NCBI GenBank assembly: GCA_027619545.1 | Contig: JAQCFT010000005.1 | Span: 1 to 41,191 of the forward strand | Source: Verrucomicrobiota bacterium | GTDB taxonomy: Bacteria > Verrucomicrobiota > Verrucomicrobiia > Limisphaerales > AAA164-E04 | Length of the DNA: 41,191 nt | Direction: 5' to 3' | Shown here: piece by piece, positions 5,209 to 31,500 of the stretch | Layout of the letters: every line of letters begins with the position of its first letter | How positions within the stretch are numbered: the first letter of the stretch is position 1 | The notes under the pieces: model-generated | Databases searched by the model: none | The model's input: only the letters and a program-made list of their open reading frames with translations | Told to the model about the DNA's origin: nothing | Translations under genes and position numbers: made by a program

Positions 5209-6993
5209 TCACGGCGCCTGAATAAAAAGTTGCTGCAATGCTTCCGGACCGATGAGTTCATCCGGACACCATGAAACGAGTGCTGTGCGTTTGGACAGAT
5301 GTTCGGCAACTTCTTTGATGTATTTGATTTCGTTACGGCCACGAAGTTGTATCAGGGTATGGGTCGAGTCACATTTTGAAAAACTCTGGTTGATCACCCA
5401 TGCGAATGGGTCGATTTGGGCCCGTCTCAAGTCATCCTGCAACATGGCTGCTTCATGCACGGGAGTCGCTTCAGGTAAAGTAACCACGATGACGTGTGTA
5501 TATCGTGGGTCACGGAGGCGAGGCAGCAAATCCCTTACTTCGCCAGGCATGTCACTTGCCTTCTTGGCGACTTCCCGATGATACGATTCTGTGGCGTCGA
5601 GCAGTAGCAATGTATGACCGGTAGGTGCCGTGTCGAGGACGACAAACCCAGTTTCTCCCCGTGCGACGGTGCGGGCGAAAGCTCGAAAAACGGCAATTTC
5701 TTCCGTGCAGGGAGAACGAAGATCCTCTTGCAACAACGAAAGCGCGTTTCCGTCCAGGTTCCTTCCTGCCGTTGAGAGCACATAGTCCACATAGGATTGA
5801 GTTTCTTTCCGAGGATCAATACGACTGACAGTCAGGCCTTTGAATTCACCGGCAGCATCTTCAATATGCGCCGCCGGATCGGTGGTGCTCAAATGAACCT
5901 GATGTCCTCGCCTCGCGAGTTCGATGGCAACCGAAGCTGCAATGGTTGTTTTCCCCACCCCACCTTTCCCCATCGTCATCACGACGCCACGGCCTGATTC
6001 TTCAAGTTCGTCAACCACTTCGGTCAAGGATTGAGTCAAGGGCAAGGTCATTTCCATGTCGTTTTGAAAAGACATGCTTTCGCTTGGGCTTGCTTGAGAT
6101 AAGGCGCGCAGAGCCGCAATGCCCAGCAGGTTGTGGGGCTGAAGCGGCACTTTGGTGATTGCCATGCCGGATAAAAAGACTTTGGCTCCCTCCAAGGCAT
6201 GCTTGCCACGTTCAAGCAATGCTTTTGCCAGTGGATCGTCACCAGCTTCCTCGAATAGGCCATTCAGTACGAGGCTTTGATTCCGGATGCCGATTTGCGC
6301 AAGTTCTTTGCTTGTCCGTTCGGCTTCTGAAAGCGCTGCCTTTTGAGCCCGACTGACCAGGATAAGGGTCGTTCGTTCCCCGTCCGAGAGGGAATGCAGA
6401 GCATTTTCATAAATACTGCGCTGCTTCTCCAATCCAGCCAAAGGCCCAAGACATGAATTCCCTGTGGTCGAATCATTCAGGAATCCAGTCCATGCTCCTG
6501 GCAGGGTTAAAAGCCTCAATGTATGTCCGGTCGGAGCGGTGTCGAATACAACATGATCATATCCCTCCGTGGCCTTGGGATCTCCAAGAATGCGCGAGAA
6601 TTCATCGAAGGCGGCGATTTCCATGGTGCATGCCCCGGAAAACTGCTCTTCCATACTTTTGATGACAGACTCGGGCAGTTTGCCCCGGTAAGGGCCAACC
6701 ATGCGCTCGCGATAGGCGGCAGCCGCTGCGGCCGGATCTACATTCAAGGCATCCAATCCCGTCACTTCGGGCACAGCTGATGGACTGGATGCAAGTGTTA
6801 CACCCAGCACTTCGTCCAAATTCGAAGCAGGGTCCGTGCTGACTAACAGCACCCTTTTTCCAAGGTCGGCAAGCTGGATGGCACAAGCGCAAGCGATGGA
6901 CGTTTTTCCCACGCCACCTTTCCCTGTAAAGAACAAAAAAGGGCTCGGTTTTTGAAGTGATTGAAGGAGCGAATGATTGACTGATGCACTCAT
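5209..6993 (-). CDS. arsA: Arsenite-stimulated ATPase ArsA
   Basis: Cytoplasmic two-domain ATPase of 594 aa that normally powers an arsenite efflux pump (ArsB). Each half has a deviant Walker A, GKGGVGKT, near residues 24-31 and 342-349, followed by the family STDPA motif and a DTAPTGHTLRL signal. The three cysteines that bind As(III)/Sb(III) in the characterised enzyme are all present: SGACTMEIA (Cys122), NSCLGPLAG (Cys181) and RSPCTEEIA (Cys429). The start at 6993 overlaps the arsD stop by 4 nt; the frame is open back to 7020 without signals. It is the last gene of an arsR-arsD-arsA operon. No ArsB, Acr3 or ArsC is encoded in the window, so the partner permease must lie elsewhere or be absent. 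Confidence 0.96.
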   Translation of the reverse strand: MSASVNHSLLQSLQKPSPFLFFTGKGGVGKTSIACACAIQLADLGKRVLLVSTDPASNLDEVLGVTLASSPSAVPEVTGLDALNVDPAAAAAAYRERMVGPYRGKLPESVIKSMEEQFSGACTMEIAAFDEFSRILGDPKATEGYDHVVFDTAPTGHTLRLLTLPGAWTGFLNDSTTGNSCLGPLAGLEKQRSIYENALHSLSDGERTTLILVSRAQKAALSEAERTSKELAQIGIRNQSLVLNGLFEEAGDDPLAKALLERGKHALEGAKVFLSGMAITKVPLQPHNLLGIAALRALSQASPSESMSFQNDMEMTLPLTQSLTEVVDELEESGRGVVMTMGKGGVGKTTIAASVAIELARRGHQVHLSTTDPAAHIEDAAGEFKGLTVSRIDPRKETQSYVDYVLSTAGRNLDGNALSLLQEDLRSPCTEEIAVFRAFARTVARGETGFVVLDTAPTGHTLLLLDATESYHREVAKKASDMPGEVRDLLPRLRDPRYTHVIVVTLPEATPVHEAAMLQDDLRRAQIDPFAWVINQSFSKCDSTHTLIQLRGRNEIKYIKEVAEHLSKRTALVSWCPDELIGPEALQQLFIQAP

Positions 6994-7361
6994 GAACAAC
7001 ACGAACTCCCCCCACAGCAACTCGATTCCGATGTTGATGTGGATTCGGAAATGTTCAGTTTTAAGAGCTCCGCCAATTCAGAACGCTCGGGATAACGCGA
7101 TTGAAGCGCAACCTGCCCATTGAACAGGATGACGGGCAAGCAGGCTTCCCCATCACTCACAAGCAAATTGCTGATCGTTTCTTCTTTGACGAAGGCATCT
7201 GGATTTTGGGAAAGATTGAAGCGATGCACTGCCACACCATGGGATTTGATCCATTCAATGTCGGCTGCAAACTGAACAAGTTGAGTATCCACATCGGGAC
7301 CGCAGACTCCGGTGGAGCAGCACATGGCAGGTTCGAAGATTTGTAGGGTTTGAGTGTTCAT
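6990..7361 (-). CDS. arsD: Arsenic metallochaperone ArsD
   Basis: ArsD passes As(III) to ArsA and can act as a weak secondary repressor. The 123-aa protein has the three N-terminal cysteines needed for chaperone function in the motif EPAMCCSTGVCG (Cys14, Cys15, Cys20, matching Cys12, 13 and 18 of the studied protein), then the thioredoxin-like body. It ends with two vicinal cysteine pairs (SSCCGGSSCCS), as in the classic plasmid ArsD. The start is the ATG at 7361; a TTG at 7373 in frame is less likely. It lies 24 nt after arsR and overlaps arsA by 4 nt, so expression is expected to follow the ArsR-controlled promoter upstream. Confidence 0.95.
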   Translation of the reverse strand: MNTQTLQIFEPAMCCSTGVCGPDVDTQLVQFAADIEWIKSHGVAVHRFNLSQNPDAFVKEETISNLLVSDGEACLPVILFNGQVALQSRYPERSELAELLKLNISESTSTSESSCCGGSSCCS

Positions 7362-7956: not shown

Positions 7957-10900
7957 ATGAGTTTCAGAAGGAAAAACCGAATACGGACATTCATCATCAT
8001 GGGTGTCAGTGTTGCTTTTCATGTCTCGTTTTTATCGGGAGGTCTAGGCGCTGTGGAATTCGGACGGGATGTGTTGCCGATATTTTCAGAAAAATGTTTC
8101 CAGTGCCACGGTCCGGATGAAAAGAATCGTAAGGCCGATCTGCGTCTGGACACCATGGAAGGAGCAACCAGGGATCTGGGGGGGTATGCTGCGGTGGTCC
8201 CTGGTAATCCCGGGCAAAGCACGCTGATCGATCGTATCGAGCATGTTGATCCCGACGAAATCATGCCGCCGCCGGATTCGGAGCTTGTTTTGAATGCGAA
8301 GGAAAAGCTCCTCCTTCGCGAATGGATCGAAATGGGGGCTCCATTTGAAGATCACTGGGCCTTTCTCCCTCCACAAAAGTTGACTCTGCCGAATTCAGGA
8401 CATCCGATGGATGCTATCGTCGCAGCTCGATTGGATCGTGAGGGTTTATCTTTTTCCCCTCCGGCAAGCGCCGGGATACTATGCCGACGTCTCTATCTGG
8501 ATATCATCGGAATTCCTCCAACTCCCACGGAAGTCGATGCATTTGTGGCGGCAGAGAAGGTAAATCGTGACCAGGCAGTCAAGGACCTCAGCAACCGCTT
8601 GCAGAACAGCGCTCAATTTGGCGAACGTTGGGCGCGTCCCTGGTTGGATGTTGCCCGGTATGCGGACAGCAATGGTTTCGAAAAAGATCTGGCCCGCGAA
8701 CAGTGGGCATGGCGCGATTGGGTGATTCAGGCCATCAATAATGACAAACCTTACAATGCATTCCTGATTGAACAAATCGCCGGCGATCTCTTGCCGGACG
8801 CCACACAGGATCAAATCATCGCAACCGGTTTCTTGCGCAACGGGATGGTCAATGAAGAAGGCGCGATTGTGCCGGAGCAATTCCGCATTGAAGGCCTTTT
8901 CGATCGCATGGATTGCGTGGGCAAAGCGGTGCTGGGACTTTCATTGCAGTGCGCCCAATGTCATTCCCATAAATTCGACCCCATCACCCAGGACGAATAT
9001 TATGGCATGTTCGCTTTTCTGAACAATACGCATGAAGCTCAATCCTGGGTTTATTCGAAGAAGCAATTGGACCAGATCCAACACATCCAATCAAAGGTCG
9101 AAGATCTGGAGAACAAAATCCGATCGGTGCACCCGGATTGGAAAACAGAAATCACCCATTGGGAAGCATCGCTACAGGCAAATCACCCCAAGTGGCAGAC
9201 TCTCGATTTTCACGAACACGTCTGGGAAGGCGGTTTGAATCATCCGACCCAACTCCCCGATCACAGCGTATTGGTATTGGGCCACCCCACAGTGGGCGGA
9301 AGCATGTATTTGGTTGCCCGTCCTGGTGAAACCACAGTGACAGAGTTAAGACTGGAAGCGTTGCAACATGGCGACCATCCCTTTGGAGGTCCCGGCCGCG
9401 GTAGGAAGGGATTGTTCTCGATTGGTGAATTGGAAATCTATCAACGGGCCTCCGCCGAGGCCGATTGGGAAAAAGTGGCATTGAAGGGAGCCCGAGCTGA
9501 CTTCGCCACCGAAGAACGTGCGATCAGCCATGAAGCGGAAAAGGAAAAACGGTCCCTCATCGGCCCTGCCGCTTTCATGATAGACGGGAATACCAAGACA
9601 GGCTGGATGCCCGACAGAGGTCCCGTCTTGCGACATACTGATTCTGTGGCCGTGGTAACCTTGTCGTCCCCACTGAAGCTCACCGCTGAAAGTGAATTGA
9701 AGATTCGGTTACAATTACACCAAGGCGAATCAGCAGACGGTCGGGACAATCTGCAATTGGGGCGGGTGCGCTGTTCCATAACGGACACCCCTCCATCCGA
9801 TGCACCTCTGCCAGATCATGCCGCCTGGCTGGCCATGGAAAAACCAATCGCAGAACGCACCCAAGCTGACTTCCGGGTAATTTTCAGGGCCTGGCGCAAT
9901 AGTCTGGAGGATTGCTCTGAAATCAATACCGAAATCGTTGCACTGGAACAAAACTATCCCGAAGCGGAAACCAGCGTACTGAGTCTAGCCGAACCTCCGA
10001 CTGACCTGCAGCGTGTCACCTATTTTCTGGATCGAGGAGGCTGGAACCGCCCACGTCATGTGGTGGAGCCTCATGTTCCGACTGCTTTGCATGCGACCCA
10101 CAACACGCCAAAAACACGCCTCGACTTCGCCCGTTGGCTCGCCAGCGATGCGTCCCCTCTGACTGCGAGAGTGCAGGTCAACCGAGTTTGGCAATCCATC
10201 TTTGGCGTCGGACTGGTGGAAACCGCCGAAGATTTTGGCACCCGAGCGCCACGCCCGGAACATCAGGCGCTGCTCGATTGGCTGGCTGTGGATTTCATGG
10301 AAAAGGGATGGAGTCTCAAATCACTGATTCGCACCATCGTTTCAAGTCAGGTTTATCAACAGGATTCCAAATGCCCCCCCGAGCTCGCCGAGCGGGATCC
10401 ACAGAATCGTTTACTGGCGCGTGGCCCACGCTTTCGAATGGATGCCGAATCCATCCGGGACACGGCACTCTCGATCTCGGGATTGCTGCATGAACGCATC
10501 GGTGGAGCGAGCTTTCATCCTCCGGTGCCTCAAAGCATGCTGGACTACAATTATTTCAAAGTGGACTGGCATGAAGCCCAAGCCCCGGAGCGATATCGAC
10601 GTTCTCTTTACATGTTTCGGAAGCGATCCATGCCCGATCCGGTCTTAACCACTTTTGACGCCCCTAACGGCGATTTCGCCTGCGCAAGACGCATGCGGTC
10701 GAACACCCCGTTGGCAGCCTTGACACCGCTCAACGAACCGGTCTTTGTGGAAGCATCGCGCGCATTGTCACTCAGAATTTTGAAAGAAGGCGGAACAACG
10801 GATGCATCGCGCGCCGATTACGGATTCCGGCTTTGCACCGGACGTTCGAGCACAGCTTCGGAAAGGGACGCCTTGTTGTCCCTGATTGAGAAGCAACGCT

Positions 10901-11061
10901 CCCGGCTGGCGGACGGTTGGTTGTCAATAGACCAGATCGGATTCGGCGGTGACGACAAGAGAACTGAACTCCCCGAAGGAACGACACCGCAAGACGCAGC
11001 AGCCTGGACCATCGCCGCCCGGGTACTTCTGAACATGGATGCCACTCTCACCAAATTTTGA
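7957..11061 (+). CDS. Secreted PSD1 heme protein (PSCyt1-DUF1549-DUF1553) with galactose-binding-like insert
   Basis: Protein of 1034 aa with a Sec-type signal peptide in the first 32 residues. The PSCyt1 domain carries CFQCHGPDE (Cys47, Cys50, His51). DUF1549 follows (about 130-350), ending in a second heme-type motif CAQCH (Cys332, Cys335, His336) and the segment HKFDPITQDEYYGMFAFLNNT. A short helical, possibly coiled-coil stretch (about 365-400) leads to a beta-rich insert at about 428-611 with MIDGNTKTGW and ELEIYQ patterns, resembling discoidin/galactose-binding-like modules. DUF1553 fills the C terminus from about 687 (RGGWNRPRHVVEP, VGLVETAEDFG, FDAPNG). A Tat-type DUF1501 gene follows directly. 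The role is unestablished; extracellular redox work on a polymer is inference. Confidence 0.92.
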   Translation: MSFRRKNRIRTFIIMGVSVAFHVSFLSGGLGAVEFGRDVLPIFSEKCFQCHGPDEKNRKADLRLDTMEGATRDLGGYAAVVPGNPGQSTLIDRIEHVDPDEIMPPPDSELVLNAKEKLLLREWIEMGAPFEDHWAFLPPQKLTLPNSGHPMDAIVAARLDREGLSFSPPASAGILCRRLYLDIIGIPPTPTEVDAFVAAEKVNRDQAVKDLSNRLQNSAQFGERWARPWLDVARYADSNGFEKDLAREQWAWRDWVIQAINNDKPYNAFLIEQIAGDLLPDATQDQIIATGFLRNGMVNEEGAIVPEQFRIEGLFDRMDCVGKAVLGLSLQCAQCHSHKFDPITQDEYYGMFAFLNNTHEAQSWVYSKKQLDQIQHIQSKVEDLENKIRSVHPDWKTEITHWEASLQANHPKWQTLDFHEHVWEGGLNHPTQLPDHSVLVLGHPTVGGSMYLVARPGETTVTELRLEALQHGDHPFGGPGRGRKGLFSIGELEIYQRASAEADWEKVALKGARADFATEERAISHEAEKEKRSLIGPAAFMIDGNTKTGWMPDRGPVLRHTDSVAVVTLSSPLKLTAESELKIRLQLHQGESADGRDNLQLGRVRCSITDTPPSDAPLPDHAAWLAMEKPIAERTQADFRVIFRAWRNSLEDCSEINTEIVALEQNYPEAETSVLSLAEPPTDLQRVTYFLDRGGWNRPRHVVEPHVPTALHATHNTPKTRLDFARWLASDASPLTARVQVNRVWQSIFGVGLVETAEDFGTRAPRPEHQALLDWLAVDFMEKGWSLKSLIRTIVSSQVYQQDSKCPPELAERDPQNRLLARGPRFRMDAESIRDTALSISGLLHERIGGASFHPPVPQSMLDYNYFKVDWHEAQAPERYRRSLYMFRKRSMPDPVLTTFDAPNGDFACARRMRSNTPLAALTPLNEPVFVEASRALSLRILKEGGTTDASRADYGFRLCTGRSSTASERDALLSLIEKQRSRLADGWLSIDQIGFGGDDKRTELPEGTTPQDAAAWTIAARVLLNMDATLTKF

Positions 11062-11072
11062 AAGCAACTGAC

Positions 11073-12479
11073 ATGACTTCTAAGGACATGATACGAAACG
11101 AATTCGCAAAAGGTGTGACCCGTCGGTGGTTTTTAAGGGATTGCGGCGTCGGCATCGGAGCCACCGCCTTCACTTCGTTGCTCGCTCAGGACCAACTTCT
11201 CAAGGGTGGAAGAACGCACTTCCCGCCCAAGATCAAGCGCGTGGTTTATCTGTTTCACGCGGGCGCCCCAAGTCATCTGGAACTCTTCGACCCCAAACCG
11301 GAATTGACCAAACGGGACGGACAACTGCCACCCTCGGAATTGTTGAAAGATTACCGAGCCGCGTTCATCAATCCGAACTCAAAACTACTGGGGCCCAAAT
11401 TCACCTTCAGCCCCCACGGCCAAAGCGGCATCGAATTGAGCGACATGTTGCCGCATACATCGCAATTGACGGATGACATGTGCCTGATTCGATCCATGCA
11501 CACCGAAGCCGTGAACCATGCCCCGGCTCAGATCATGCTCAACACAGGGTCCCAGCAATTCGGACGCCCCAGCCTGGGAGCATGGATGTTATATGGACTC
11601 GGAAGCCAAAGCCGTAACCTGCCGGGCTACGTCGTCCTGACCAGCGCCAAAGGCACCAGCGGCGGAGCGAGCAACTACGGCAGCGGGTTTCTTCCCACCG
11701 AGTATGGCGGCATTCCATTTCGCGGCACGGGGGATCCGGTGCTTTACCTTTCCAACCCCAAAGGATATGACTCCAAGGCCCAAAGAGATTCCCTGGATAC
11801 CTTGAACGAGCTGAACCAAATTGGTTTTGAACAATCTCCGGATCCGGAAATCACCGCGCGTATCCAGGCCTACGAGACGGCTTACCGCCTGCAGACAAGC
11901 GCCCCCGAACTGATGGATCTGAAACAGGAATCACAGGAAACTTTCGACCTCTATGGCATCAAAAACCCACAACAATCAAACTACGCACGCAACTGCCTGT
12001 TGGCTCGACGGCTGCTCGAACGGGGTGTCAGTTTCGTGCAACTGTTCCATGAAGCATGGGATCAACACGGCAATCTGACCAAGGACATCCAGAAGAACTG
12101 TCAGGAAACGGATCAAGGCACCGCAGCCCTGCTCATCGATCTCAAGCGTCGAGGCATGCTCGATGACACGTTGGTGATCTGGGGTGGTGAATTCGGTCGC
12201 ACTCCCATGGTCCAAGGCGGCAACGACGGTCGCGACCATCACAATCGATGTTTCTCCATGTGGCTTGCCGGCGGTGGAGTGAAAAAAGGATTCGTTTACG
12301 GAGAAACCGACGAACTTGGATTCAACATCGCCCGAGACCCGGTACACGTCCACGACCTCAATGCCACCCTGCTCCACCTGCTCGGATTCAACCACGAACG
12401 ACTGACCTACCGCTACCAGGGACGGGACTTCAGACTGACCGATGTGCACGGGAAAGTGCTGAATCAAATTCTCGTTTAG
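11073..12479 (+). CDS. DUF1501 family Tat-type secreted protein
   Basis: Protein of 468 aa with a twin-arginine leader, TRRWFLRDCGVGIGATAF (Arg17-Arg18). The mature part shows the DUF1501 hallmarks: VYLFHAGAPSHLELFDPKP, DMLPHTSQLTDDMCLIRSM, FHEAWDQHGN and WGGEFGRTPM, then RDHHNRCFSMWLAGGG and a C-terminal HDLNATLLHLLG. The histidines and aspartates in these motifs suggest a metal site of the alkaline phosphatase/sulfatase type, but no activity is known. It starts 11 nt after the PSD1 gene's stop, so the two form a unit. A TTG at 11058 and ATG at 11088 are alternative starts. Confidence 0.9.
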   Translation: MTSKDMIRNEFAKGVTRRWFLRDCGVGIGATAFTSLLAQDQLLKGGRTHFPPKIKRVVYLFHAGAPSHLELFDPKPELTKRDGQLPPSELLKDYRAAFINPNSKLLGPKFTFSPHGQSGIELSDMLPHTSQLTDDMCLIRSMHTEAVNHAPAQIMLNTGSQQFGRPSLGAWMLYGLGSQSRNLPGYVVLTSAKGTSGGASNYGSGFLPTEYGGIPFRGTGDPVLYLSNPKGYDSKAQRDSLDTLNELNQIGFEQSPDPEITARIQAYETAYRLQTSAPELMDLKQESQETFDLYGIKNPQQSNYARNCLLARRLLERGVSFVQLFHEAWDQHGNLTKDIQKNCQETDQGTAALLIDLKRRGMLDDTLVIWGGEFGRTPMVQGGNDGRDHHNRCFSMWLAGGGVKKGFVYGETDELGFNIARDPVHVHDLNATLLHLLGFNHERLTYRYQGRDFRLTDVHGKVLNQILV

Positions 12480-15088: not shown

Positions 15089-16141
15089 TCAAGTCGGGCG
15101 TTTCCTTAGAATGACGCGGTGAAGTTGATCATTGATGGATATGATGAAGGCGGCGGAATGAAGCGGACTGCGTGGATCTTTTCTGTCCTCCTCAAACATC
15201 AAGGCCATAAAGTCCACCAGATGATCCAGCTGGTCAAAATCAATACGAACAATCGGGTTCATGGTGCCGTTTTTCTCCAGATATATCCAACCCGACTCCT
15301 TCGGCACCAACAGTCCAATGTGATCAACACCGATATATTTACCGCGAAGATCCACAAAATGGCACAAGACCACTTTCAACTTCTCCGAGAACACCAGTCC
15401 ATCTCTCTTCCACCATTCCTTTTTTCTCTCAAACAATTGAGTCAAGGACATTTCAGTATTCGCGTAATGGGCCGGTATGGCACGTGTGACTCGTAGACTA
15501 AGCGCCAGATTCAATTCATACGTCGAACGGGACTCCAGTCCTGTCATCATTGAATAATTCGCGTGAGGCGACAAAAAATTTTCCCCAGATGCCATGCCTG
15601 GTAATTCCAGAGTTAAAGATTTAAAATACTTCACTCCTCCTTTTGAAAAAAGTTCCAGGCGACGAAAATGCTTCGTGGCAAAATGTTCCATCGTCTGATC
15701 AGCGAAAACCGGTCCTTCCCTGAGCAATAAAAGAGCCTGATCAAAACAAGTCAGCGCATGGTGATTGGGACGGGTTTGCCAATGGACCAAATCGGAATAA
15801 CCGGGAGCCCCCTTGGCATACAACTGAGCAGGAACATCAAATGCGAACACATCCGCCCCATCGGGACGAGCCTCGACATCAGGATGGATCTGCAATCGGA
15901 GTTGCTGCCTTTTGATCAGATTATGAAATCCCTTGAGAGCAATATCACCACAACCGGCGGCCTTCAGGTGCTCCAGGGTGTCCTGCACCATGTCGGGTTG
16001 ATTCAGAAAGCTGAGCCGGATAGGTGATTCCGCATGCACAACACACGACAAGAAAGACCATTGCAGCAACAAGACACACAAACCAAGCCTGTTGCGACAT
16101 CCAAATCCCATCCAGTTCCTTTGCATCAAATAGGGCTTCAA
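15089..16141 (-). CDS. Secreted protein, possibly DUF4300-like
   Basis: Protein of up to 350 aa with a signal peptide (LGLCVLLLQWSFLSCVVHAES). I do not recognise it firmly. The C-terminal half has VDHIGLLVPKESGWIYLEKNG, followed by a region that resembles my memory of DUF4300 proteins, where a conserved His precedes a hydrophobic strand and an EK pair. The middle contains a Tyr/His/Asn-rich segment (HANYSMMTGLESRSTYELN). ATGs at 16126 and 16111 are alternative starts that shorten the n-region without losing the signal. It is divergent from the phosphotriesterase-family gene and convergent with the sialidase-like gene, so it appears to be its own transcription unit. Confidence 0.7.
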   Translation of the reverse strand: MKPYLMQRNWMGFGCRNRLGLCVLLLQWSFLSCVVHAESPIRLSFLNQPDMVQDTLEHLKAAGCGDIALKGFHNLIKRQQLRLQIHPDVEARPDGADVFAFDVPAQLYAKGAPGYSDLVHWQTRPNHHALTCFDQALLLLREGPVFADQTMEHFATKHFRRLELFSKGGVKYFKSLTLELPGMASGENFLSPHANYSMMTGLESRSTYELNLALSLRVTRAIPAHYANTEMSLTQLFERKKEWWKRDGLVFSEKLKVVLCHFVDLRGKYIGVDHIGLLVPKESGWIYLEKNGTMNPIVRIDFDQLDHLVDFMALMFEEDRKDPRSPLHSAAFIISINDQLHRVILRKRPT

Positions 16142-16268: not shown

Positions 16269-17303
16269 ATGCAACAGATGACGCTGAATAGACGTTCCAT
16301 GCTTCTCGGCAGTTTGGGCATCGGGTTGTCTCATGCTTTGACCAGGGTTCCTGGTCAGGCTCAAGCCACCCCGAAAATGGTTCAAACGGTGATGGGGCCT
16401 ATCGAAGCGAAAGAACACGGTGTGGCCCTGCCGCATGAACATATCTTGTGCGATTTCATCGGGGCAGCATCCACCGGCCCCCATCGATGGGATCAGGAGG
16501 AAGTCTTTCAACGCATGCTTCCTTACCTGCAGGAACTTAAGGAAGCGGGCGCTTCCACATTTTACGACTGTACCCCAGCCTACATTGGCCGCGACCCTGT
16601 TCTTTTAAAACGGCTTTCCTCAATCACCGGCTTGCACGTGATCACCAACACCGGATTTTACGGCGGCGCCATGGACAAGTATGTCCCAGATTTCGCATAC
16701 AAATTGAACATGAATGACATGGCTGACTTGTGGATCAAGGAGTTTGAGCATGGCATCGGAGATACCGGTATTCGTCCTGGGTTCATCAAAATTGGAGTCG
16801 ATTCCATCGAAACCGAATCGTCACCATTGTCCAAGATCGATTCGATCATCGTTCAAGCAGCCGCCCGGGTTTCTGTAAAAACAAATTTAAGCGTCACCTG
16901 CCATACAGGAGGAGGTTTTGCGGGACTGGCGGCGCTACGCTTGTTCATGGATCATGGTGGCGCCGCTTCCAGGTTTATCGTGGCACATGCAGACAGCCAC
17001 GGATTACCTATCAATCGCAAAGTTGCCGATCTGGACGGATGGGTTTCTTACGACGCCATCGGTCGGCGCCCTCTCAAACAACACCTCGAGACGGTGCCTC
17101 AAATGCTGTCCCACCGGGCGGATCGACTTTTGTTGTCTCAAGATAACGGCTGGTATTCGGCAGGAGAGGACCAGGGCGGAGACGTCCGTGGCTATATTGA
17201 TCTTTTAAAAACCTTTTTGCCTGCCCTGGAAAAATCAGGTGTTCCCTCAGAGCAAATCCAGCAATTGATTCGCCACAACACCTGGAATGCCTTCGCAAGT
17301 TGA
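16269..17303 (+). CDS. Phosphotriesterase-family metal-dependent hydrolase, Tat-type leader
   Basis: Amidohydrolase-superfamily TIM-barrel enzyme of 344 aa with a binuclear metal site. Ligands are readable: PHEHI (His56, His58), the bridging Lys174 in GFIKIGVD, His212 in TCHTGG, His240 in VAHADSHG and Asp292 in SQDNGW. The N terminus LNRRSMLLGSLGIG has a twin-arginine type leader, so the enzyme is probably periplasmic and folded before export, which is less usual for this family. Members hydrolyse phosphotriesters or lactones; the specificity here is unknown. AlkB follows after 15 nt on the same strand. ATG 16278 is an alternative start. Confidence 0.9.
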   Translation: MQQMTLNRRSMLLGSLGIGLSHALTRVPGQAQATPKMVQTVMGPIEAKEHGVALPHEHILCDFIGAASTGPHRWDQEEVFQRMLPYLQELKEAGASTFYDCTPAYIGRDPVLLKRLSSITGLHVITNTGFYGGAMDKYVPDFAYKLNMNDMADLWIKEFEHGIGDTGIRPGFIKIGVDSIETESSPLSKIDSIIVQAAARVSVKTNLSVTCHTGGGFAGLAALRLFMDHGGAASRFIVAHADSHGLPINRKVADLDGWVSYDAIGRRPLKQHLETVPQMLSHRADRLLLSQDNGWYSAGEDQGGDVRGYIDLLKTFLPALEKSGVPSEQIQQLIRHNTWNAFAS

Positions 17304-17318
17304 ACGAATTCCTCAGCA

Positions 17319-17930
17319 ATGGATCTTTTTCGTCGATCATTTGAACAACCCGAAAACCTTCTCCCCAAGGATGGGATCGTCAAATATTATGGCGCCATTT
17401 TATCGTGGGAATCTGCGGATGAATATTTCAAACGGTTGTTGAAATCCATCGATTGGAATCATGACGAAGTCAGAATCGCAGGAAAACGTCTGACCACAAA
17501 AAGAAAAGTCGCCTGGCATGGAGATCATCCATTTGCATACAGCTATTCAGGGACCAGCAAGACGGCGCAAGCATGGACCACGGAACTCCTGGAGCTCAAA
17601 TCCCTGGTGGAAGAAAAGTCTGGTGAAACGTTCAACTCATGCCTTCTGAACCTGTACCACGACGGGAGCGAAGGCATGTCCTGGCACAGCGATGCGGAAA
17701 AGGCCCTAAAAAAGAATGGGGCCATCGGCTCGTTGAGTCTTGGAGCTGAACGAAAGTTTTCCTTCAAACACAAGACCACCAAAGAGACCACGTCCATGAT
17801 GTTGGAACATGGCAGCTTTCTGATCATGCAGGGCACCACCCAAACCTTCTGGCAACACTGCCTCCCCCCCACCAAAAAAGTGAACGCCCCCAGAATCAAC
17901 TTAACGTTCCGATCCTTCGTTGGCCTTTGA
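17319..17930 (+). CDS. alkB: Alpha-ketoglutarate-dependent dioxygenase AlkB family
   Basis: DNA/RNA repair dioxygenase of 203 aa that removes alkyl groups from bases by oxidative demethylation. The iron site is SWHSD (His123, Asp125) and His180 (WQHCLPP). The 2-oxoglutarate arginines are in PRINLTFR (Arg192, Arg198). NLYHDGSEGMSWHSD and the substrate-lid segment WHGDHPFAYSYSG resemble the ALKBH2/3-type bacterial branch rather than the E. coli AlkB type. Cytoplasmic. It sits 15 nt after the phosphotriesterase-family gene, so it may share a transcript, although no functional link is obvious. Confidence 0.93.
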   Translation: MDLFRRSFEQPENLLPKDGIVKYYGAILSWESADEYFKRLLKSIDWNHDEVRIAGKRLTTKRKVAWHGDHPFAYSYSGTSKTAQAWTTELLELKSLVEEKSGETFNSCLLNLYHDGSEGMSWHSDAEKALKKNGAIGSLSLGAERKFSFKHKTTKETTSMMLEHGSFLIMQGTTQTFWQHCLPPTKKVNAPRINLTFRSFVGL

Positions 17931-18052
17931 TTCCCTCATCCTCTCCGTCCCAAATTCTTCTCGACAGCTTTCCGCTGATCTTTAAAAAATGAGGCGTGAC
18001 CATTTTCAAGCATATTCAAAGGCTGACGATAGCATGGAGGAAAGGATCAGGC

Positions 18053-20656
18053 ATGCATTCCTGCCGCACGCATGTTACCAGGTTGTTTATTTTCCTTTTT
18101 GGATCATCTCAGATCATGGGACAAGACTCCTTTCCTCAGATCGTCACTCCCAACCCTCCTTACCCGGATGTCACCGAGATGATTGGCGAGTCCTTTGAGG
18201 ACTTCGAAACGGGAACGATGGCCGGGGGATGGGATGCACTGCGCCACCGGATGCGAGGCAATATTTATCTAAGCAACCCAGGGCGGCTTGATCGTCCGCG
18301 CCTGACTCAATTTGAAAGGCTGACTCTCGGGGATCCGGAAGAGGTGGCTGCGGTAAATCGTGAAATCATCGAATACTGTCGAATCAAACAAAGCGCCATC
18401 GAAGAAGCCTGGGCTGATCCCAAACGCAGACATCCGGCCAAGGAGGTATGCGCTTATCAGACAGAACTGATTCCCCTGGCTATTCTGACTCTCCGTATTG
18501 GTGAACGCCTCATACCGGAGGCACACCAGGCCATCAAAAATCTCATCATAGCGTTTCGTCCCGAAGCGGCCGATATCGAACCCACTCTCTGGATGCATGC
18601 CCCCGGTTACAACGGATCGAACGCTCATGACTACCTGAGTTTTCTGGCCTTAAGTTGGGAGGTTACAGGCAATCCGGATCTGCGGGATGCGGCTTACTGG
18701 GGACTTCGAGGCGAGCTGGATCATATCAACCTGAGCGGTGACATATCTGAATTCAATGTATTGGAAGGACATTGGTGCAGTTCCAATGGATACGATGCCA
18801 TCAAAGCATTCGTGCGGGATCCGGAACTGGCACGTATGGCTCGAATGATTGCCGAACGCCTGTGGTTGAATCGTTTTCTCACCTGGTCCCCGGTGGTGGA
18901 ACGGATCACCGGCCCAGGAAGCCGCATGGCGCCGGGAGCATGGCTCGGAACGAGTGGTGACCGCCTTCAATTCGCCACCGGAGTCGAGAAACCCATTTGG
19001 CTCAATGAATTCTTCGATTGGGGTGTTTGGAAACAACCGGTCAACGGCGGTCGCTGGCCACTGGACGATGTTCAGGGCATGGTACCCGAACTTCCTGGCT
19101 ACCTTCAGGACGTGGCCTGGCGCAAGAAATATCCGAACACACTGCGGAGTTCCGTATACCTTGTTCCCTGGATGCACCGTTACCCCAAACTACCAGGCAT
19201 CTCCAACACGACACCCGATCCGGTCTATGGGGAAATGGTCAACCATCAGACATCAAACTATACATTGGGCTCCATCAATCATCCCTACGAAGCCACCGAG
19301 TGCATGGTCTACGCCTCGGCCTGGTGGAATCATGAACAAGCAATACCCGAAGCTCCATTGGGCAGCCCAAAACGGTTCAGCGTTTTGTATCCACATTATG
19401 TCTTCAATGGTGCCGCCTTCATGGATCGCACGGAAATCCATTTCCAGAATCATCCAGATCACCCCAAAACAGACGAATGGACACGCGAACCCGGCCCGTG
19501 GATGCGTGAGTTTGTCGAACAGGGGCGCGCCGGACTGCTGCAGCATAAGAACACCATGATTTTCACTTACTCCGGACGCAATCGGGGGCATAACGATGTC
19601 CCTGTGGTTTCCGAAAAGCTGAAACGGGTGTCGGCCGGAATGTTTCTCTTCCGTTGGGAACCGGGCCTTGATGGACTATTCGTCAACGACAAACCCGTCA
19701 CAAGCCTGCCGGTGGAACTCGAACCCGGCGACTGGTGGTTCATTCACGACGGCGACACGTTCGCCGGCATTCGCCCTCTTTCATCCACGCATCTGGGAGG
19801 CGACTGCAAAACCACGCTGGAACAACGTACCCGCCAGATTGCATTGTATCAGGACAATTTCAACGGGAACTCGATCGAAGGTATCCCGGACGAAGCCTGG
19901 GTCAAAGCCCGAAGCGGGTTCATCGTGGAACTGGGCGATGTCGAGGAATACGGGTCGTTCGAAAAATTCCGCGACCTGATGCTCATGAGCAAAGTGGAAG
20001 AAGAGGCTGAAGGATTCATCCGCCATGTCCAATATCAACGCCCCGGTCGCAAACTTGAATTAATGTGGCATTGCTATAACGAAACGTATCTGACACGAAA
20101 AGTAAATGGTGTGGACCAAAGGGATACCAGATACCTGCAGTCACCCGAATTCGCTGTCGGACAGGGCACTTTGGAAACCCACGACGCACGCCTTCAATCC
20201 GACGAGGATAAAACCGTGTGGCTTCTTTCAGCCGAGCCTTCACAAACCTACGTGGCCTATCAACCGAACCCGCACGAACAACTACCCATTCAACTGAAAA
20301 CACCCATTGCGAATATCCAAGCCGATCGCTTTCCGTTTGGAAAACTGGTGGTCAGCAAAGTATCCGATGAGGAAATTCATCTCGAAATAGATGCAGGATT
20401 CCGTCCTTTCTGGAGCAATGTCCGCTGGCGCGCCCAGGTCTGGCAGGATCTCGGAACACACCCAAGCGATATCTGGATTGAAAGTGATATCCGGAAAGTA
20501 ACCGCCAACATCAATGGGGATGATATGCCTGTGGTTCGAGCGGAAAACCCTGACAAAACGACCTGGTTGCTTGATCCATATGCGAAACTACCCCGTGTAA
20601 AAGACCGCCTGGCACCTCCTGGTTCGCAGCGCATTGAAACCCCATCGAACAAGTAA
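18053..20656 (+). CDS. Large secreted protein of unknown function, possible alpha-toroid plus beta-rich C terminus
   Basis: Exported protein of about 867 aa. GGAGG at 18036-18040 lies 12 nt before ATG 18053, which gives a signal peptide (VTRLFIFLFGSSQIMG, then QDSFP); the frame is open to a GTG at 17996. I do not recognise a named family. The first part is helix-rich with repeated segments such as DYLSFLALSWEVTGNPDLRD and AAYWGLRGELDH, reminiscent of alpha/alpha-toroid carbohydrate-active enzymes. The second half is Trp- and beta-rich (ELEPGDWWFIHDGDTFAGI, KLELMWHCYNETYL), like the sandwich domains of heparinase-type lyases. A sodium:solute symporter follows 355 nt downstream. A polysaccharide lyase or hydrolase role is a guess. 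Confidence 0.6.
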   Translation: MHSCRTHVTRLFIFLFGSSQIMGQDSFPQIVTPNPPYPDVTEMIGESFEDFETGTMAGGWDALRHRMRGNIYLSNPGRLDRPRLTQFERLTLGDPEEVAAVNREIIEYCRIKQSAIEEAWADPKRRHPAKEVCAYQTELIPLAILTLRIGERLIPEAHQAIKNLIIAFRPEAADIEPTLWMHAPGYNGSNAHDYLSFLALSWEVTGNPDLRDAAYWGLRGELDHINLSGDISEFNVLEGHWCSSNGYDAIKAFVRDPELARMARMIAERLWLNRFLTWSPVVERITGPGSRMAPGAWLGTSGDRLQFATGVEKPIWLNEFFDWGVWKQPVNGGRWPLDDVQGMVPELPGYLQDVAWRKKYPNTLRSSVYLVPWMHRYPKLPGISNTTPDPVYGEMVNHQTSNYTLGSINHPYEATECMVYASAWWNHEQAIPEAPLGSPKRFSVLYPHYVFNGAAFMDRTEIHFQNHPDHPKTDEWTREPGPWMREFVEQGRAGLLQHKNTMIFTYSGRNRGHNDVPVVSEKLKRVSAGMFLFRWEPGLDGLFVNDKPVTSLPVELEPGDWWFIHDGDTFAGIRPLSSTHLGGDCKTTLEQRTRQIALYQDNFNGNSIEGIPDEAWVKARSGFIVELGDVEEYGSFEKFRDLMLMSKVEEEAEGFIRHVQYQRPGRKLELMWHCYNETYLTRKVNGVDQRDTRYLQSPEFAVGQGTLETHDARLQSDEDKTVWLLSAEPSQTYVAYQPNPHEQLPIQLKTPIANIQADRFPFGKLVVSKVSDEEIHLEIDAGFRPFWSNVRWRAQVWQDLGTHPSDIWIESDIRKVTANINGDDMPVVRAENPDKTTWLLDPYAKLPRVKDRLAPPGSQRIETPSNK

Positions 20657-21011: not shown

Positions 21012-22562
21012 ATGGAAACGCTACGTCTAGGTACTTTGGACATTTCGCTGATCGTGATTTACCTCATCGTGATCGGTGGGCTCGGGCTTTGGTTCAGTCG
21101 AGGCATCAAGACTGGCAAGGATTTTTTCCTGGCTGGAAAGTCCCTTCCCTGGTGGGCTGCTGGTTTGTCGCTGGTCGTTTCCGATATCGGGGCAAAGGAC
21201 ATGATCGGTCTGGCCGGGGATGGCTATCGGTTTGGGGTGGTCATGATGAATTTTGATTTTCTGGGATGCATCCTGCCGGTGATCGTGGCGGCATTTCTGT
21301 TCATGCCCTACCTGTGGCTGGCCAATGTTTACACGGTTCCCGAATACCTAGGCAAACGTTACAACCAAACCGTCCGCACTTTCTTCGCCATCCTTTGGGT
21401 CCTGTTCATGGTAGGAACCCTGGCCACCATCTTTGTCAGTGCAGCTTCCATGTTTGAAGGGATTCTGGGCTGGAGTTTCTGGCTGTCCGTCGGGGTCACC
21501 GCCGTGCTGGTGGGAATGTACACAACCGTTGGCGGACTGAAAGCGGTGGTTGTAACGGACGCTCTGTCATGCGTCATCCTGATCATCGGAGCGGGCATCA
21601 TCTGTATCACCGGTCTGTCGGAAGTGGGCGGCATTTCGGCTCTGAAAGAGCAGATTCAAAGTCACGATTGGACCAAACACCATCTGGAGCTGCTGCCACC
21701 AGCCGATCATCCGGCATATCCCTGGCCTGCGGTGCTTTTGGGACTGGGATTTGTTTTGGGGCCTGCCTACTGGATCGGTAACCAGGCCATCGTGCAGCGA
21801 ACCCTGGGCACGCGATCAGCAGCCGAAGCAAGGGCTTCCTACATTTTCTGCGCCGCCATCAAGCTGGTCTTCCCGTTACTGCTCGTGATTCCTGGATTGA
21901 TCGGTATTGCGCTTCTCAGCAAGGAGCTTGGAGCGCCGGGTGATGATTGGAACGGCAACCAAGTGCTCCCCATGCTGCTCGTCAAATTATTACCCCCTGG
22001 TGTTCTTGGAGTGGTCATCGGGGCTTTTCTCGCGGGCGTGCTTTCCAATCTGGATTCCTATGTCAATTCGGCAAGCACCATGCTTGTGCACGACTTCTAC
22101 AAGGCATGGGTCCGCCCGGACGCAAGCGACCGCCAATGTCTGGTTCTGGGACGCTGGCTGATTCCCGTTCTCCTTCTGGCCGGGGTGGGAGTGAGTTATC
22201 CCGTTCAGCAGGGCTTTGGATCCGTGTTCGAAGCCTTTCAAACATTCCTGTCCTTCATCCAGGGTCCACTGCTTGCCCTACTACTGTTTGGGATGCTGAC
22301 CCGCCGGGCCAATGCCACGGGCGGATTGATCGGCATGACCGGGGGGGTGACAACGGCCGCGTTGATGACTTTTTCCGAGGCTTTGTTCGGATTGGAAGGT
22401 GGCATTTCATTTCTGTGGGTTGCCTGGTGGAGCTTCGTCGTCTCGATGGCTGGAGTTGGATTAGGCAGTTTGTTGAAACCGCCCTACCCGGAAGACCGTC
22501 TCAAAGGGCTCATTGTGGGTAGTGTTTCCCCACCACCTGACACGGAGGGCGGTCAAGCATGA
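21012..22562 (+). CDS. Sodium:solute symporter family transporter (SSS)
   Basis: Inner-membrane Na+-coupled symporter of 516 aa, with roughly 13 hydrophobic segments. Family marks include DFFLAGKSLPWW, GLSLVVSDIGAKDMIGLAGD in helix 1 to 2, VYTVPEYLGKRYN and MYTTVGGLKAVVVTD. The substrate is not predictable, but PVC members of this type often flank glycan-degradation genes. Its stop overlaps the start of a 70-aa membrane protein by 4 nt, so the two are coupled. The large secreted protein upstream is on the same strand but 355 nt away. Confidence 0.92.
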   Translation: METLRLGTLDISLIVIYLIVIGGLGLWFSRGIKTGKDFFLAGKSLPWWAAGLSLVVSDIGAKDMIGLAGDGYRFGVVMMNFDFLGCILPVIVAAFLFMPYLWLANVYTVPEYLGKRYNQTVRTFFAILWVLFMVGTLATIFVSAASMFEGILGWSFWLSVGVTAVLVGMYTTVGGLKAVVVTDALSCVILIIGAGIICITGLSEVGGISALKEQIQSHDWTKHHLELLPPADHPAYPWPAVLLGLGFVLGPAYWIGNQAIVQRTLGTRSAAEARASYIFCAAIKLVFPLLLVIPGLIGIALLSKELGAPGDDWNGNQVLPMLLVKLLPPGVLGVVIGAFLAGVLSNLDSYVNSASTMLVHDFYKAWVRPDASDRQCLVLGRWLIPVLLLAGVGVSYPVQQGFGSVFEAFQTFLSFIQGPLLALLLFGMLTRRANATGGLIGMTGGVTTAALMTFSEALFGLEGGISFLWVAWWSFVVSMAGVGLGSLLKPPYPEDRLKGLIVGSVSPPPDTEGGQA

Positions 22563-28186: not shown

Positions 28187-28323
28187 AAATTGACAAATAT
28201 TGTTCTTTTTTCAAACCCCACCTGAAACTACCCAGAAATTGACTTTCAACCTCACTTTAATGGGCGTAGTGTGACGTCTGTTGAAGTCCAATAGAATTTC
28301 TTTGAATGAGAAGGTTGCAATCA

Positions 28324-31300
28324 ATGATGTGGAATAACAAAAAAGGCGCCGACATGATCAAACGAATGGTGACTGGCATCGTAGCCCTCGCTGCTCTCCC
28401 CCAACTCACCGAGGCCCAGCCTTCGATTGATTTCAATCGCGATATCAAACCCATCCTCTCAGACAGATGTTTTGCCTGTCATGGGCCGGATGAACAAGGC
28501 CGGAAAGCGAACCTTCGCTTTGACATCAAAACCGACCTCAGCCACGCGTCGGACCAGGGAACACCCATTTTGCAACCAGGGGATCCCGATGCCAGCGAAT
28601 TGTATCTTCGCATCATCACGGATGATCCAGATGACATCATGCCGCCTCCCGAAGCTCTGTTGACACTTTCACCAGCAGAAAAACAGTTGATCAGACGTTG
28701 GATCAAAGAAGGCGCCGAGTGGTCGGGACATTGGTCTTTCCAAAGTGTCGGAAAAATCGAAGTTCCTGAAGTATCCAGAGAAGCCGTGCTCAGAAATCCC
28801 ATTGATCATTTTGTCGAACAAAGATTAATCCAGGAAGATCTGCCATCCACTGAAGAAGCCTCGCTGGAAAGACTGCTGCGACGTGTTTCAATCGATTTGA
28901 CGGGACTCCCCCCCAGCGAGGAGATGCGCAACCGATTCCTTCAGGACAAGAAACCAGGCGCATACGAACGACTGGTGGACCGGTTGCTGGCATCAGAACA
29001 TTTTGGCGAGCGCATGGCAATGGACTGGTTGGACGTGGCCCGTTTTGCCGATACCTACGGGTACCAGGCTGATCGTTTCAACCATTTGTGGCCCTGGAGA
29101 GACTGGGTGATCCAAGCCTTTAATCAAAACCTTCCTTACGACGAATTCATCACGCATCAAATGGCGGGTGACCTGATGGAAGACCGGACGCAGGACACAG
29201 TGTTGGCGACCGCATTCCATCGGAACCACCGTCAGACCAATGAAGGCGGCAGCACCAATGAAGAATTCCGGGTGGAATACAATGCCGACCGGCTCAAAAC
29301 CACCGCACTGGCATTTTTGGGGTTAACCATTGAGTGCGCCCGTTGCCATGATCATAAATATGACCCGATATCACAGCGCGATTACTATCGATTGTTCGCC
29401 TTTTTCAACAACACCGACGAATCGGGGCTATACTCGCACTTTACCGACGCCATCCCCACTCCGACACACTTCCTTTACAAAGAGGGTGAGCACCCAAAAC
29501 ATGAGGCGGCAAAATCCAGGTTACGGGCATTGGAAGCAAAGGAAGCATCCATCCGAGAAGTTGCCAAACCGGCCTTCGAAACCTGGTGGAAGGAAATCAA
29601 AGTTGCGAGCGCTTCTCCAGATGCAGATCAGGTGGGGTATTTCAATTTTGAAACAAAAGAGGAAAAAGGTTACCCGAATCTGGCAAAGGAAGATCACTTC
29701 GCTAAGATCAACGACAACCCTCAGCCGGTCGAAGGCAACAAGGGACAGTCGCTCGTGTTTGATGGTGAGAATTCCATCAACATCGACCAGGTGGCGGACT
29801 TCAATCGAAACCAACCCTTCTCGATGTCCGTCTGGATGGAAATCCCTGAAGTGCTGAACAAAATCATCGTTCTCCATCACTCCAAAGCAGGGTCGGATGC
29901 CGGCAGCAGGGGGTATGAGTTGCTGTTGGAAGATGGCCATGCCGCTTTTGCCCTGGTTCATTTTTGGCCGGGGAATGCCATCAAGGTCCGCACCCAGTCA
30001 ACACTGCCCATCCATCAATGGCTGCATCTCGGGTGGACCTACGATGGTTCCAGCAAAGCGGAAGGCATAAGGCTTTATGTCAACGGCAAACCCGAGCCGG
30101 TGGAAATCGTCCGGGACACACTCTACAGAGACATTACTTACGGTGGAGGGGTGCCCTTGCAACTTGCCGCACGTTTCAGAGGCCGGGGATTCAAGGATGG
30201 CAAACTGGATGAAATCCGCATCTTCAACACGGAACTCACCCCGCTGGAAATGCAGGCCGTTTTTCTGGAAACCCCCATCCAAAAACCCGAAACGAACGAG
30301 CCGGACACGGAAGCATGGTTCGACTATTGGCTGAATCGCCATCACAAACCTTATCAAACCTGGGTTTCAGATTTGCAGGAAGCCCGGCAGGAAGAAAGCC
30401 GCATCGTCGAAAGCCTGCGTGAAATCATGGCCATGGGTGACATCAAGGGGGGACGTAAAACCTACATCCTTCGAAGAGGACAATACGATCTCCCCGCCGA
30501 AGAAGTTTCCGCCGGAACACCCGATCGCATTTTGCCTTTTGACCCCTCCTGGCCGGCAAATCGACTCGGCCTGGCAAAGTGGTTGATCGATCGCAAGCAT
30601 CCGCTCACTTCCCGCGTGGTGGTGAATCGATTCTGGCAAATGTTTTTCGGAAAAGGACTTGTCGAAACTTCCGAGGACTTCGGCAGTCAGGGCGCCCAAC
30701 CCTCCCATCGCGAGTTGCTGGACTGGTTGGCCGGCTGGTATATGGACAACGGATGGAACACAAAGGCTTTGTTGAAACTGATCGTCACCTCCCACACCTA
30801 TCGCAAAGACTCTGTCCCAACACACGAAATGATGCAGAAGGATCCGGAAAACAGACTCCTGGCGCGTGGCCCCAAACAACGGCTGATGGCGGAAATCTTG
30901 CGGGATCAAGCCCTCAGCGCGGCAGGCATATTATCCCCCAAACTCGGAGGTCCCAGCGTCAAGCCGTACCAACCTGCAGGCGTCTGGAAAGAAGTCTCCG
31001 GGGCCACCTACACACCTGATAAAGGCGAAGGTCTGCATCGTCGCAGTCTTTACACATATTGGAAGCGCACCGCTCCCCCCCCTGCCATGCTGACCTTCGA
31101 TGCCACATCACGCGAGGATTGCATTGCTCGACGCGTCCCAACCAACACACCCCTGCAAGCGTTGGTTCTGCTGAACGATCCCCAGTTCATCGAAGCAGCC
31201 CGCATGCTGGCACAACGCATGGTGCAGGAAGGCGGCGAATCCCTGATCGACCAGATTGTATACGGATTTCGTCAAGTCATCACACGCCCCCCCAACGCGC

Positions 31301-31500
31301 CCGAACTGGAATTATTGAAAACCATTTACAGCGAACGCTTCGACTCCCTCGCAGGTGTCGATTTCTCCAAAGAGGACGCCTCGATCGAGCAAATGGGAGA
31401 ATTGAAATGGGAAAAAGATCTGGACCTCCGAAACCTCAGTGCTCTCACAGCGGTGTCACTGGCCATATTAAATTTCGACGAAGCCATCGTGAGAAGATAA
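28324..31500 (+). CDS. Secreted PSD1 heme protein (PSCyt1-DUF1549-LamG-DUF1553)
   Basis: Protein of about 1058 aa. TGAGAAGG at 28307-28314 lies 9 nt before ATG 28324; ATGs at 28306 and 28354 are alternatives. A signal peptide (MVTGIVALAALPQLTEA) leads to a PSCyt1 domain with CFACHGPDE (Cys49, Cys52, His53). DUF1549 follows with a second heme-type motif CARCH (about Cys338) and the HKYDPISQRDYYRLFAFFNNT segment. A LamG/concanavalin-like module occupies about 438-648 (SLVFDGENSINI, PFSMSVWMEIP, RLYVNGKPEPVEI). DUF1553 then starts near 712 (RGQYDLPAEEV, KGLVETSEDFG). A DUF1501 gene follows after 25 nt. LamG suggests glycan or surface binding. Confidence 0.92.
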   Translation: MMWNNKKGADMIKRMVTGIVALAALPQLTEAQPSIDFNRDIKPILSDRCFACHGPDEQGRKANLRFDIKTDLSHASDQGTPILQPGDPDASELYLRIITDDPDDIMPPPEALLTLSPAEKQLIRRWIKEGAEWSGHWSFQSVGKIEVPEVSREAVLRNPIDHFVEQRLIQEDLPSTEEASLERLLRRVSIDLTGLPPSEEMRNRFLQDKKPGAYERLVDRLLASEHFGERMAMDWLDVARFADTYGYQADRFNHLWPWRDWVIQAFNQNLPYDEFITHQMAGDLMEDRTQDTVLATAFHRNHRQTNEGGSTNEEFRVEYNADRLKTTALAFLGLTIECARCHDHKYDPISQRDYYRLFAFFNNTDESGLYSHFTDAIPTPTHFLYKEGEHPKHEAAKSRLRALEAKEASIREVAKPAFETWWKEIKVASASPDADQVGYFNFETKEEKGYPNLAKEDHFAKINDNPQPVEGNKGQSLVFDGENSINIDQVADFNRNQPFSMSVWMEIPEVLNKIIVLHHSKAGSDAGSRGYELLLEDGHAAFALVHFWPGNAIKVRTQSTLPIHQWLHLGWTYDGSSKAEGIRLYVNGKPEPVEIVRDTLYRDITYGGGVPLQLAARFRGRGFKDGKLDEIRIFNTELTPLEMQAVFLETPIQKPETNEPDTEAWFDYWLNRHHKPYQTWVSDLQEARQEESRIVESLREIMAMGDIKGGRKTYILRRGQYDLPAEEVSAGTPDRILPFDPSWPANRLGLAKWLIDRKHPLTSRVVVNRFWQMFFGKGLVETSEDFGSQGAQPSHRELLDWLAGWYMDNGWNTKALLKLIVTSHTYRKDSVPTHEMMQKDPENRLLARGPKQRLMAEILRDQALSAAGILSPKLGGPSVKPYQPAGVWKEVSGATYTPDKGEGLHRRSLYTYWKRTAPPPAMLTFDATSREDCIARRVPTNTPLQALVLLNDPQFIEAARMLAQRMVQEGGESLIDQIVYGFRQVITRPPNAPELELLKTIYSERFDSLAGVDFSKEDASIEQMGELKWEKDLDLRNLSALTAVSLAILNFDEAIVRR

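Follow-up and report, generated by a model that had tools for sequence, protein, structure and literature searches.

The window analysed here, a 41,191-nucleotide stretch of DNA from a Verrucomicrobiota bacterium, carries a gene for an 867-residue protein, P0001, which we consider probably to be a secreted polysaccharide lyase-like enzyme. The protein would be composed of an N-terminal (α/α)-toroid and a C-terminal antiparallel β-sandwich. Its active site would lie in the cleft where the two domains meet, and it would act by β-elimination on an acidic polysaccharide that contains uronate. Judged by sequence, P0001 belongs to none of the named families with which it was compared, and is best described as a divergent branch, not a typical member, of a far larger superfamily that has no name. 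What stands out most is the switch, within this branch, from a tyrosine conserved in the superfamily to a neighboring histidine.

The gene, its protein and close relatives

The P0001 reading frame is uninterrupted, with 867 codons from the ATG at 18053 to the stop at 20656. GGAGG (18036–18040) and AAAGGA (18041–18046) precede the ATG by 12 and 6 nt, in agreement with the sequence-only reading of this DNA, which called a protein of about 867 residues behind a strong Shine-Dalgarno sequence. Translation from an in-frame GTG further upstream (17996) would extend the protein by 19 residues; the ATG is the better start, because the Shine-Dalgarno sequence precedes it. The N-terminus, MHSCRTHVTR-LFIFLFGSSQIMGQ, contains a hydrophobic stretch at approximately residues 8–20, which by hydropathy only bears out the signal peptide claimed earlier, and signal-like N-termini are found by hydropathy in the relatives L012, L025 and L026 as well. 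We infer that P0001 is secreted. The features of the gene and protein are:

18036–18046, + strand: Shine-Dalgarno-like GGAGG/AAAGGA upstream of the ATG, read from the sequence
18053–20656, + strand: coding sequence of the 867-residue protein P0001; intact reading frame with 64–75% identical relatives in ten loci
18053–18121, + strand: probable signal peptide, about residues 1–23 as placed by eye (core at about 8–20), from hydropathy
18230–19432, + strand: toroid-like helical domain, about residues 60–460 with an uncertain end, from AlphaFold secondary structure, PL5 matches and the superfamily profile match
18611–18628, + strand: candidate active-site motif N187-G-S-N190-A-H192, from conservation
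18749–18775, + strand: candidate active-site motif E233-F-N-V-L-E238-G-H240-W, counterpart of the superfamily motif E-[YFW]-x-S-P-x-Y
18911–18925, + strand: motif G287-P-G-S-R291, counterpart of the superfamily motif G-P-x-S-R
19520–20572, + strand: C-terminal β domain, about residues 490–840, from AlphaFold secondary structure and conservation

The secondary structure predicted by AlphaFold is helical at about residues 60–290 and β at about 490–840, and the C-terminal β domain carries the sequence blocks LQHKNT, PGDWWF and ARSGF[IV]VE. The sequence-only reading had described a helix-rich part followed by a Trp-rich β part. The order of the two parts agrees with the prediction, but the helical part is the richer in tryptophan, with 18 residues in positions 1–480 against 12 in positions 481–867. 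The absence of a recognised family, also claimed in that reading, held in searches of Pfam and NCBIfam (no family at E ≤ 0.1) and of PDB sequences (no match at E ≤ 10).

The conservation of P0001 indicates that its reading frame is more than a product of chance, because ten loci, found in one scan of genome contigs, encode 64–75% identical proteins. These loci come from metagenome-assembled genomes titled Verrucomicrobia (some of them subdivision 3, and one Pedosphaera), Planctomycetota or Phycisphaerales, plus one Kuenenia. P0001 is matched in 4 of 97 related genomes, its own genome counted, and over its full length in three. A profile of the P0001 family matches 8 of 387 sampled genomes of the phylum, five of them over most of its length; one of the five is the genome of origin, and the other four proteins are 42–45% identical to P0001. 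Six of 392 genomes from the phylum of a Phycisphaerales genome contain family matches, one of which is full length. Most distant relatives were picked up through the C-terminal β domain. In a Phycisphaerales relative (L012:9944-12292), the match ends at about residue 689, after which the frame diverges; this locus consists partly of N. Plasmid records contain no match for P0001 or for the relative L053, and one weak Streptomyces match for the relative L028 (27.7% identity, E 2e-4). Four scans of viral contigs gave a single weak, partial relative (L091). Our literature search found no paper on the family of P0001.

The unnamed superfamily and the predicted fold

The other matches from the phylum samples opened onto much larger groups of proteins, which share the signature motifs N, E-[YFW]-x-S-P-x-Y and G-P-x-S-R. 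They were aligned as A3, which contains proteins of about 1150 residues, and A6–A9, mostly of about 550–800 residues; A2 is the alignment of the target family. In profile–profile comparisons, A2 reaches 99.9% with A8 (the group-3 superfamily), 99.8% with A3 and 59.6% with A6. Among the other groups, A6 and A7 reach 99.9%, A8 and A9 98.5%, A7 and A9 46.2%, and A3 and A7 3.9%. The superfamily is defined by profile homology, and P0001 has a profile match to it over most of its length, 548 columns in the comparison of A2 with A8. The profile of A4, which was built from three members, matches 56 of the 288 genomes sampled from the phylum, with several matches in some of them. None of 34 sampled members of the superfamily, P0001 included, matches Pfam or NCBIfam at E ≤ 0.01. 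Against PDB sequences, A2 has no match at E ≤ 10, A4 and A6 have none, and A5 and A7 have unrelated matches only (E ≥ 0.56).

The superfamily is probably related to toroid polysaccharide lyases. For comparison, heparinase (PF07940), alginate lyase (PF05426) and GH127 proteins, the last serving as the toroid control, were taken from genomes of the same phylum. Enlarged toroid profiles of the superfamily give 52–58% with alginate lyases and 30–54% with heparinase II/III proteins, against 1.0–1.4% with the GH127 toroid and 0.1–1.6% with reversed decoys; the positive control pair, heparinase and alginate lyase profiles, gives 96%. The link to lyases was found only with the enlarged toroid alignment. 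From small subgroup profiles it was not significant, and the smaller subsets A3, A6, A7 and A8 give 0.1–4.6%. The best lyase link obtained before the enlargement, 26.6%, was rejected, since the alignment contained the target; without the target, after realignment and with the alginate set reduced to 23 of 26 sequences, it was 1.7%. The toroid profile of the target family itself gives 0.9% and 0.1% with the lyase profiles (0.9% for alginate lyase), and 2.5% with GH127 (PF07944). None of the 109 reading frames matched by superfamily profiles (E ≤ 1e-5) comes from the heparinase, alginate-lyase or GH127 loci.

Two AlphaFold models of P0001 were compared with known structures. The model of the full-length protein, based on 11 close sequences, has a mean pLDDT of 46.7 and pTM of 0.34, and that of residues 36–480 a mean pLDDT of 45.9 and pTM of 0.48. 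Both are poor, and they are not independent, having been built from shared sequences. The best VIA-align match of the full-length model is the PL5 alginate lyase AlgL (4ozw; Z 10.0, 225 residues, 4.8 Å), with Smlt1473 next (Z 8.4–8.7). AlgL is also the best match of the domain model (Z 11.2, 212 residues, 3.7 Å), for which Smlt1473 and PanPL reach Z 9.5–10.0, GAGase VII 9.3, chondroitinase 9.2 and Atu3025 7.8. Ranks 1–15 of the domain model are all occupied by polysaccharide lyases, the lowest two of which are tied with the unrelated MO25 at Z 8.9. The PL5 matches fall within residues 28–323 of P0001. Foldseek assigns Smlt1473 probabilities of 0.95–1.00 and 0.80–0.99 for the two models, with E-values of 0.02–0.2 that are not significant, and its top match to the full-length model is an unrelated sliding clamp. 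Among the matches listed by the two programs, no further family stood out.

The α-toroid lyase shape proposed in the sequence-only reading is thus backed by two low-confidence models in which PL5 lyases rank best, by the superfamily profiles, and by carbohydrate genes beside relatives; the Foldseek E-values and the quality of the models weigh against it. We regard the (α/α)-toroid fold of P0001 as likely rather than demonstrated, because the models are not independent and helical folds can reach Z of about 13 in VIA-align without relationship, by their arrangement alone.

The best structural matches of the modelled helical domain of P0001 are the PL5 enzymes AlgL, Smlt1473 and PanPL. P0001, however, has no Pfam match to PF05426 (E ≤ 0.1), and is much longer than PL5 lyases, with a C-terminal β domain. 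The predicted architecture of P0001 is like that of PL35 GAGases and heparinase II/III-type lyases (PL12, 15, 17, 21, 39), which combine a toroid with a β-sheet domain and use Asn/Tyr/His chemistry (PMC12088678). P0001 lacks a Pfam match to the heparinase II/III-type families PF07940 and PF16889, with which the profile link exists only at the level of the superfamily, and neither P0001 nor A2 has a sequence match (E ≤ 10) to lyase families with PDB entries, PL35 included. The PL40 ulvan lyase Uly1040 resembles P0001 in size, two-domain layout, signal peptide, and toroid Asn and Glu. According to its published description, Uly1040 has 856 residues, a signal peptide, a toroid at 27–430, a β domain at 444–856, and an active site of Asn/Glu/Tyr plus a His-Asp-His-Mn set (PMC12915356). 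The branch of P0001, in contrast, lacks the Tyr, and no His-Asp-His-Mn set was identified in it. GH127 hydrolases (PF07944) differ from P0001 in showing no profile similarity.

A new carbohydrate-active enzyme family, as suggested in the earlier reading, is plausible for P0001 on the basis of the Pfam, NCBIfam and PDB searches, with the activity putative; the claim is better stated for a branch of the larger superfamily. The family may already have a recent CAZy number.

Candidate active-site residues

Motifs were aligned in 97 reading frames of at least 480 residues, out of 101 non-redundant superfamily matches. P0001 shares a glutamate and an arginine with the superfamily: Glu233 is kept in 95 of the 97 rows (two are gapped) and Arg291 in 94 (two gaps and one Ser). 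Outside the target branch, the motif Asn is present in 80 of 82 rows, as is the Tyr (two rows gapped), and all 80 scorable members carry Asn, Glu, Tyr and Arg together. The 15 rows of the target branch have neither the Asn nor the Tyr in the superfamily columns; all 15 have an Asn (N190) and a His (H240) one column later, so that N-x-H and E-x-H variants stand where the superfamily has its Asn and Tyr motifs. We therefore file P0001 as a divergent relative. If a loop were shifted by one residue, N190 would correspond to the superfamily Asn and H240 would stand in for the Tyr. A cluster of conserved Tyr, His and Asn residues, which the sequence-only reading proposed to look for, was found in the superfamily, in the form of Asn, Glu, Tyr and Arg, but its Tyr is missing from the target branch.

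Within the branch, N190 and H192 are present in 15/15 rows, and N187, N190 and H192 are invariant in 11 of 11 aligned sequences. E238 is invariant in all 15 rows and unconserved in the remaining superfamily. H448 is invariant among the same 11 sequences; no invariant His of the target family could be matched to the β-domain catalytic His of toroid lyases.

Profile alignments with lyases place the superfamily Asn on an NNH/NH motif, and the Tyr of SP-x-Y on the Tyr of SYGY or SPMY in alginate-lyase and heparinase sequences, which we take to be the catalytic Tyr. The Asn and Tyr motifs of PF05426 proteins are in register with those of the superfamily, whereas the Asn of the target branch is one column off and H240 adjoins the column of the toroid catalytic Tyr, which is absent from 15/15 target-branch rows. 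The Asn–Tyr spacing is 50 residues in the superfamily member of L061. In toroid lyases for which both residues are listed, they are 53–63 residues apart; the Asn serves as neutraliser, and Tyr and His as acid and base (PMC12088678, Table 4 for the spacing).

We hypothesize that N190, perhaps with N187, and Arg291 neutralise the uronate carboxylate in P0001, and that H240, together with H192 and E233 of the same motifs, carries out the proton transfers, a task that would fall to the conserved Tyr elsewhere in the superfamily.

The main rival to a lyase, which we regard as unlikely, is a toroid glycoside hydrolase in which E233 and E238 would act as acid and base, with H240 and the Arg binding the substrate. 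Both glutamates are invariant in the 15 rows of the target branch, the toroid hydrolases GH76 and cellulase CelQ are in the VIA-align list (Z 6.6–7.1), and GH35, GH30 and GH127 genes lie near relatives. However, E238 is unconserved in the rest of the superfamily, toroid lyases outrank toroid hydrolases in VIA-align, and the superfamily toroid profiles have no affinity to GH127. It is less probable still, and in our view improbable, that P0001 is a secreted carbohydrate-binding or structural protein that kept the fold and lost the Tyr and catalysis. The Tyr carried by 80/80 scorable other members is indeed absent from 15/15 members of the branch, but N190, H192, E233, E238 and H240 are invariant across 42–75% identity, which resembles a retained, altered site and makes the loss of catalysis the less likely reading.

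Gene neighborhood and proposed role

The neighborhoods of relatives were sampled in 14 loci of 5–22 kb, from which 33 distinct proteins were scanned against Pfam. Seven of the 14 loci contain sugar-degrading or lyase-like genes. Right-handed β-helix, lyase-like proteins are encoded in L005, L010, L011 and L013, and are 69–87% identical to one another. GH35 is present in L006 and L011, GH30 in L013, GH127 in L025, a sulfatase with GH32 in L014, and a BT_1020-like protein in L005. Because their genes are nearly identical, L006 and L011 do not count as independent loci. Two proteins from them, L006:71-3364, which is a GH35 protein, and the 99% identical L011:6660-9953, were grouped with the target by single linkage; this grouping was spurious, caused by a read-through frame in L005, and was rejected. 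The mixture of neighbor genes hints at a pectin-like substrate. We give the neighbors little weight, because sugar-degrading genes abound in PVC genomes.

The genome of the window encodes an orthologue of the β-helix protein (72% identity) on a different contig. The β-helix protein is found at an identity of at least 67% in 9 of 97 genomes, including all three carriers of full-length P0001, one of which is the genome of the window. The one-sided Fisher p of this co-occurrence is 0.0006, in a calculation that ignores kinship and uses a 67% line set after seeing the table; in two of the three carriers the β-helix matches are short (46 and 185 residues).

We also consider it improbable that P0001 acts on something other than a carbohydrate, or that it is a toroid protein of the isomerase or epimerase type: N-acetylglucosamine and cellobiose 2-epimerases are among the VIA-align matches (Z 7.2–8.0) but rank under PL5 lyases, the neighbors of relatives are often polysaccharide genes, and such epimerases are usually cytoplasmic and are not known to have a large C-terminal β domain.

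A sodium:solute symporter gene (PF00474, E 2.7e-67) follows P0001 at 21012–22562, as the sequence-only reading stated. It adjoins a P0001-type gene only in this window and not in the 14 relative loci. None of eight genes around P0001, the symporter included, has a tblastn match (E ≤ 1e-3) in these loci, while P0001 itself matched 14/14 in the same run. The symporter and the phosphotriesterase-like, AlkB-like, sialidase-like and other neighbors were therefore rejected as conserved partners (0/14 loci). The P0001 data contain nothing specific to a marine origin, marine polysaccharides or a partnership with the symporter.

Just upstream of P0001, at 16269–17930, are genes for a phosphotriesterase-family protein and, directly after it, an AlkB-like 2OG-Fe(II) oxygenase. 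A 350-residue protein that marginally matches DUF4300 (E 1.1e-6) is encoded at 15089–16141 (− strand). The 603-residue protein encoded at 5209–7020 (− strand) matches ArsA ATPase strongly along three stretches and seems to be a tandem ArsA. Planctomycete-type PSCyt1/PSCyt2/PSD1 proteins are encoded at 7957–12479, directly followed by a DUF1501 protein, and at 28306–31500. The match of the class I tRNA synthetase at 38915–41056 (− strand) begins only at profile position 184; close to the end of the contig, the protein apparently lacks its N-terminal part.

A second family recurs beside relatives (L005:12898-14511, L008:7947-9845, L009:7851-9794, L007:2175-5231 and L011:3352-6714). Its members are about 23–29% identical, with 78–86% within the pairs L008/L009 and L007/L011, and those of L005, L008 and L009 have no significant Pfam match. 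Proteins with a hydrazine synthase alpha middle domain (PF18582) are encoded near relatives in two genomes (L012:2058-4805 and L024:9105-12317, both − strand).

Starting from the polysaccharide lyase-like reading of P0001, we tentatively propose a more specific one, which is possible though not probable. The target branch would be a toroid lyase in which the Tyr has been swapped for H240 in a rebuilt N-x-H...E-x-x-x-x-E-x-H site, and a new family within a superfamily invisible to Pfam and NCBIfam; together with the β-helix protein, it would attack a pectin-like acidic polysaccharide.

Verrucomicrobiota and Planctomycetota are generally regarded as important degraders of polysaccharides. If the lyase reading is true, a superfamily of probably polysaccharide-cutting enzymes, matched in 56 of 288 genomes, is missing from general family libraries, and new lyase families of the two phyla could be drawn directly from it. 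The split between a Tyr-containing majority and a Tyr-less branch is clean, and a comparison of the two could be used to test what the conserved Tyr does in lyases of the toroid type.
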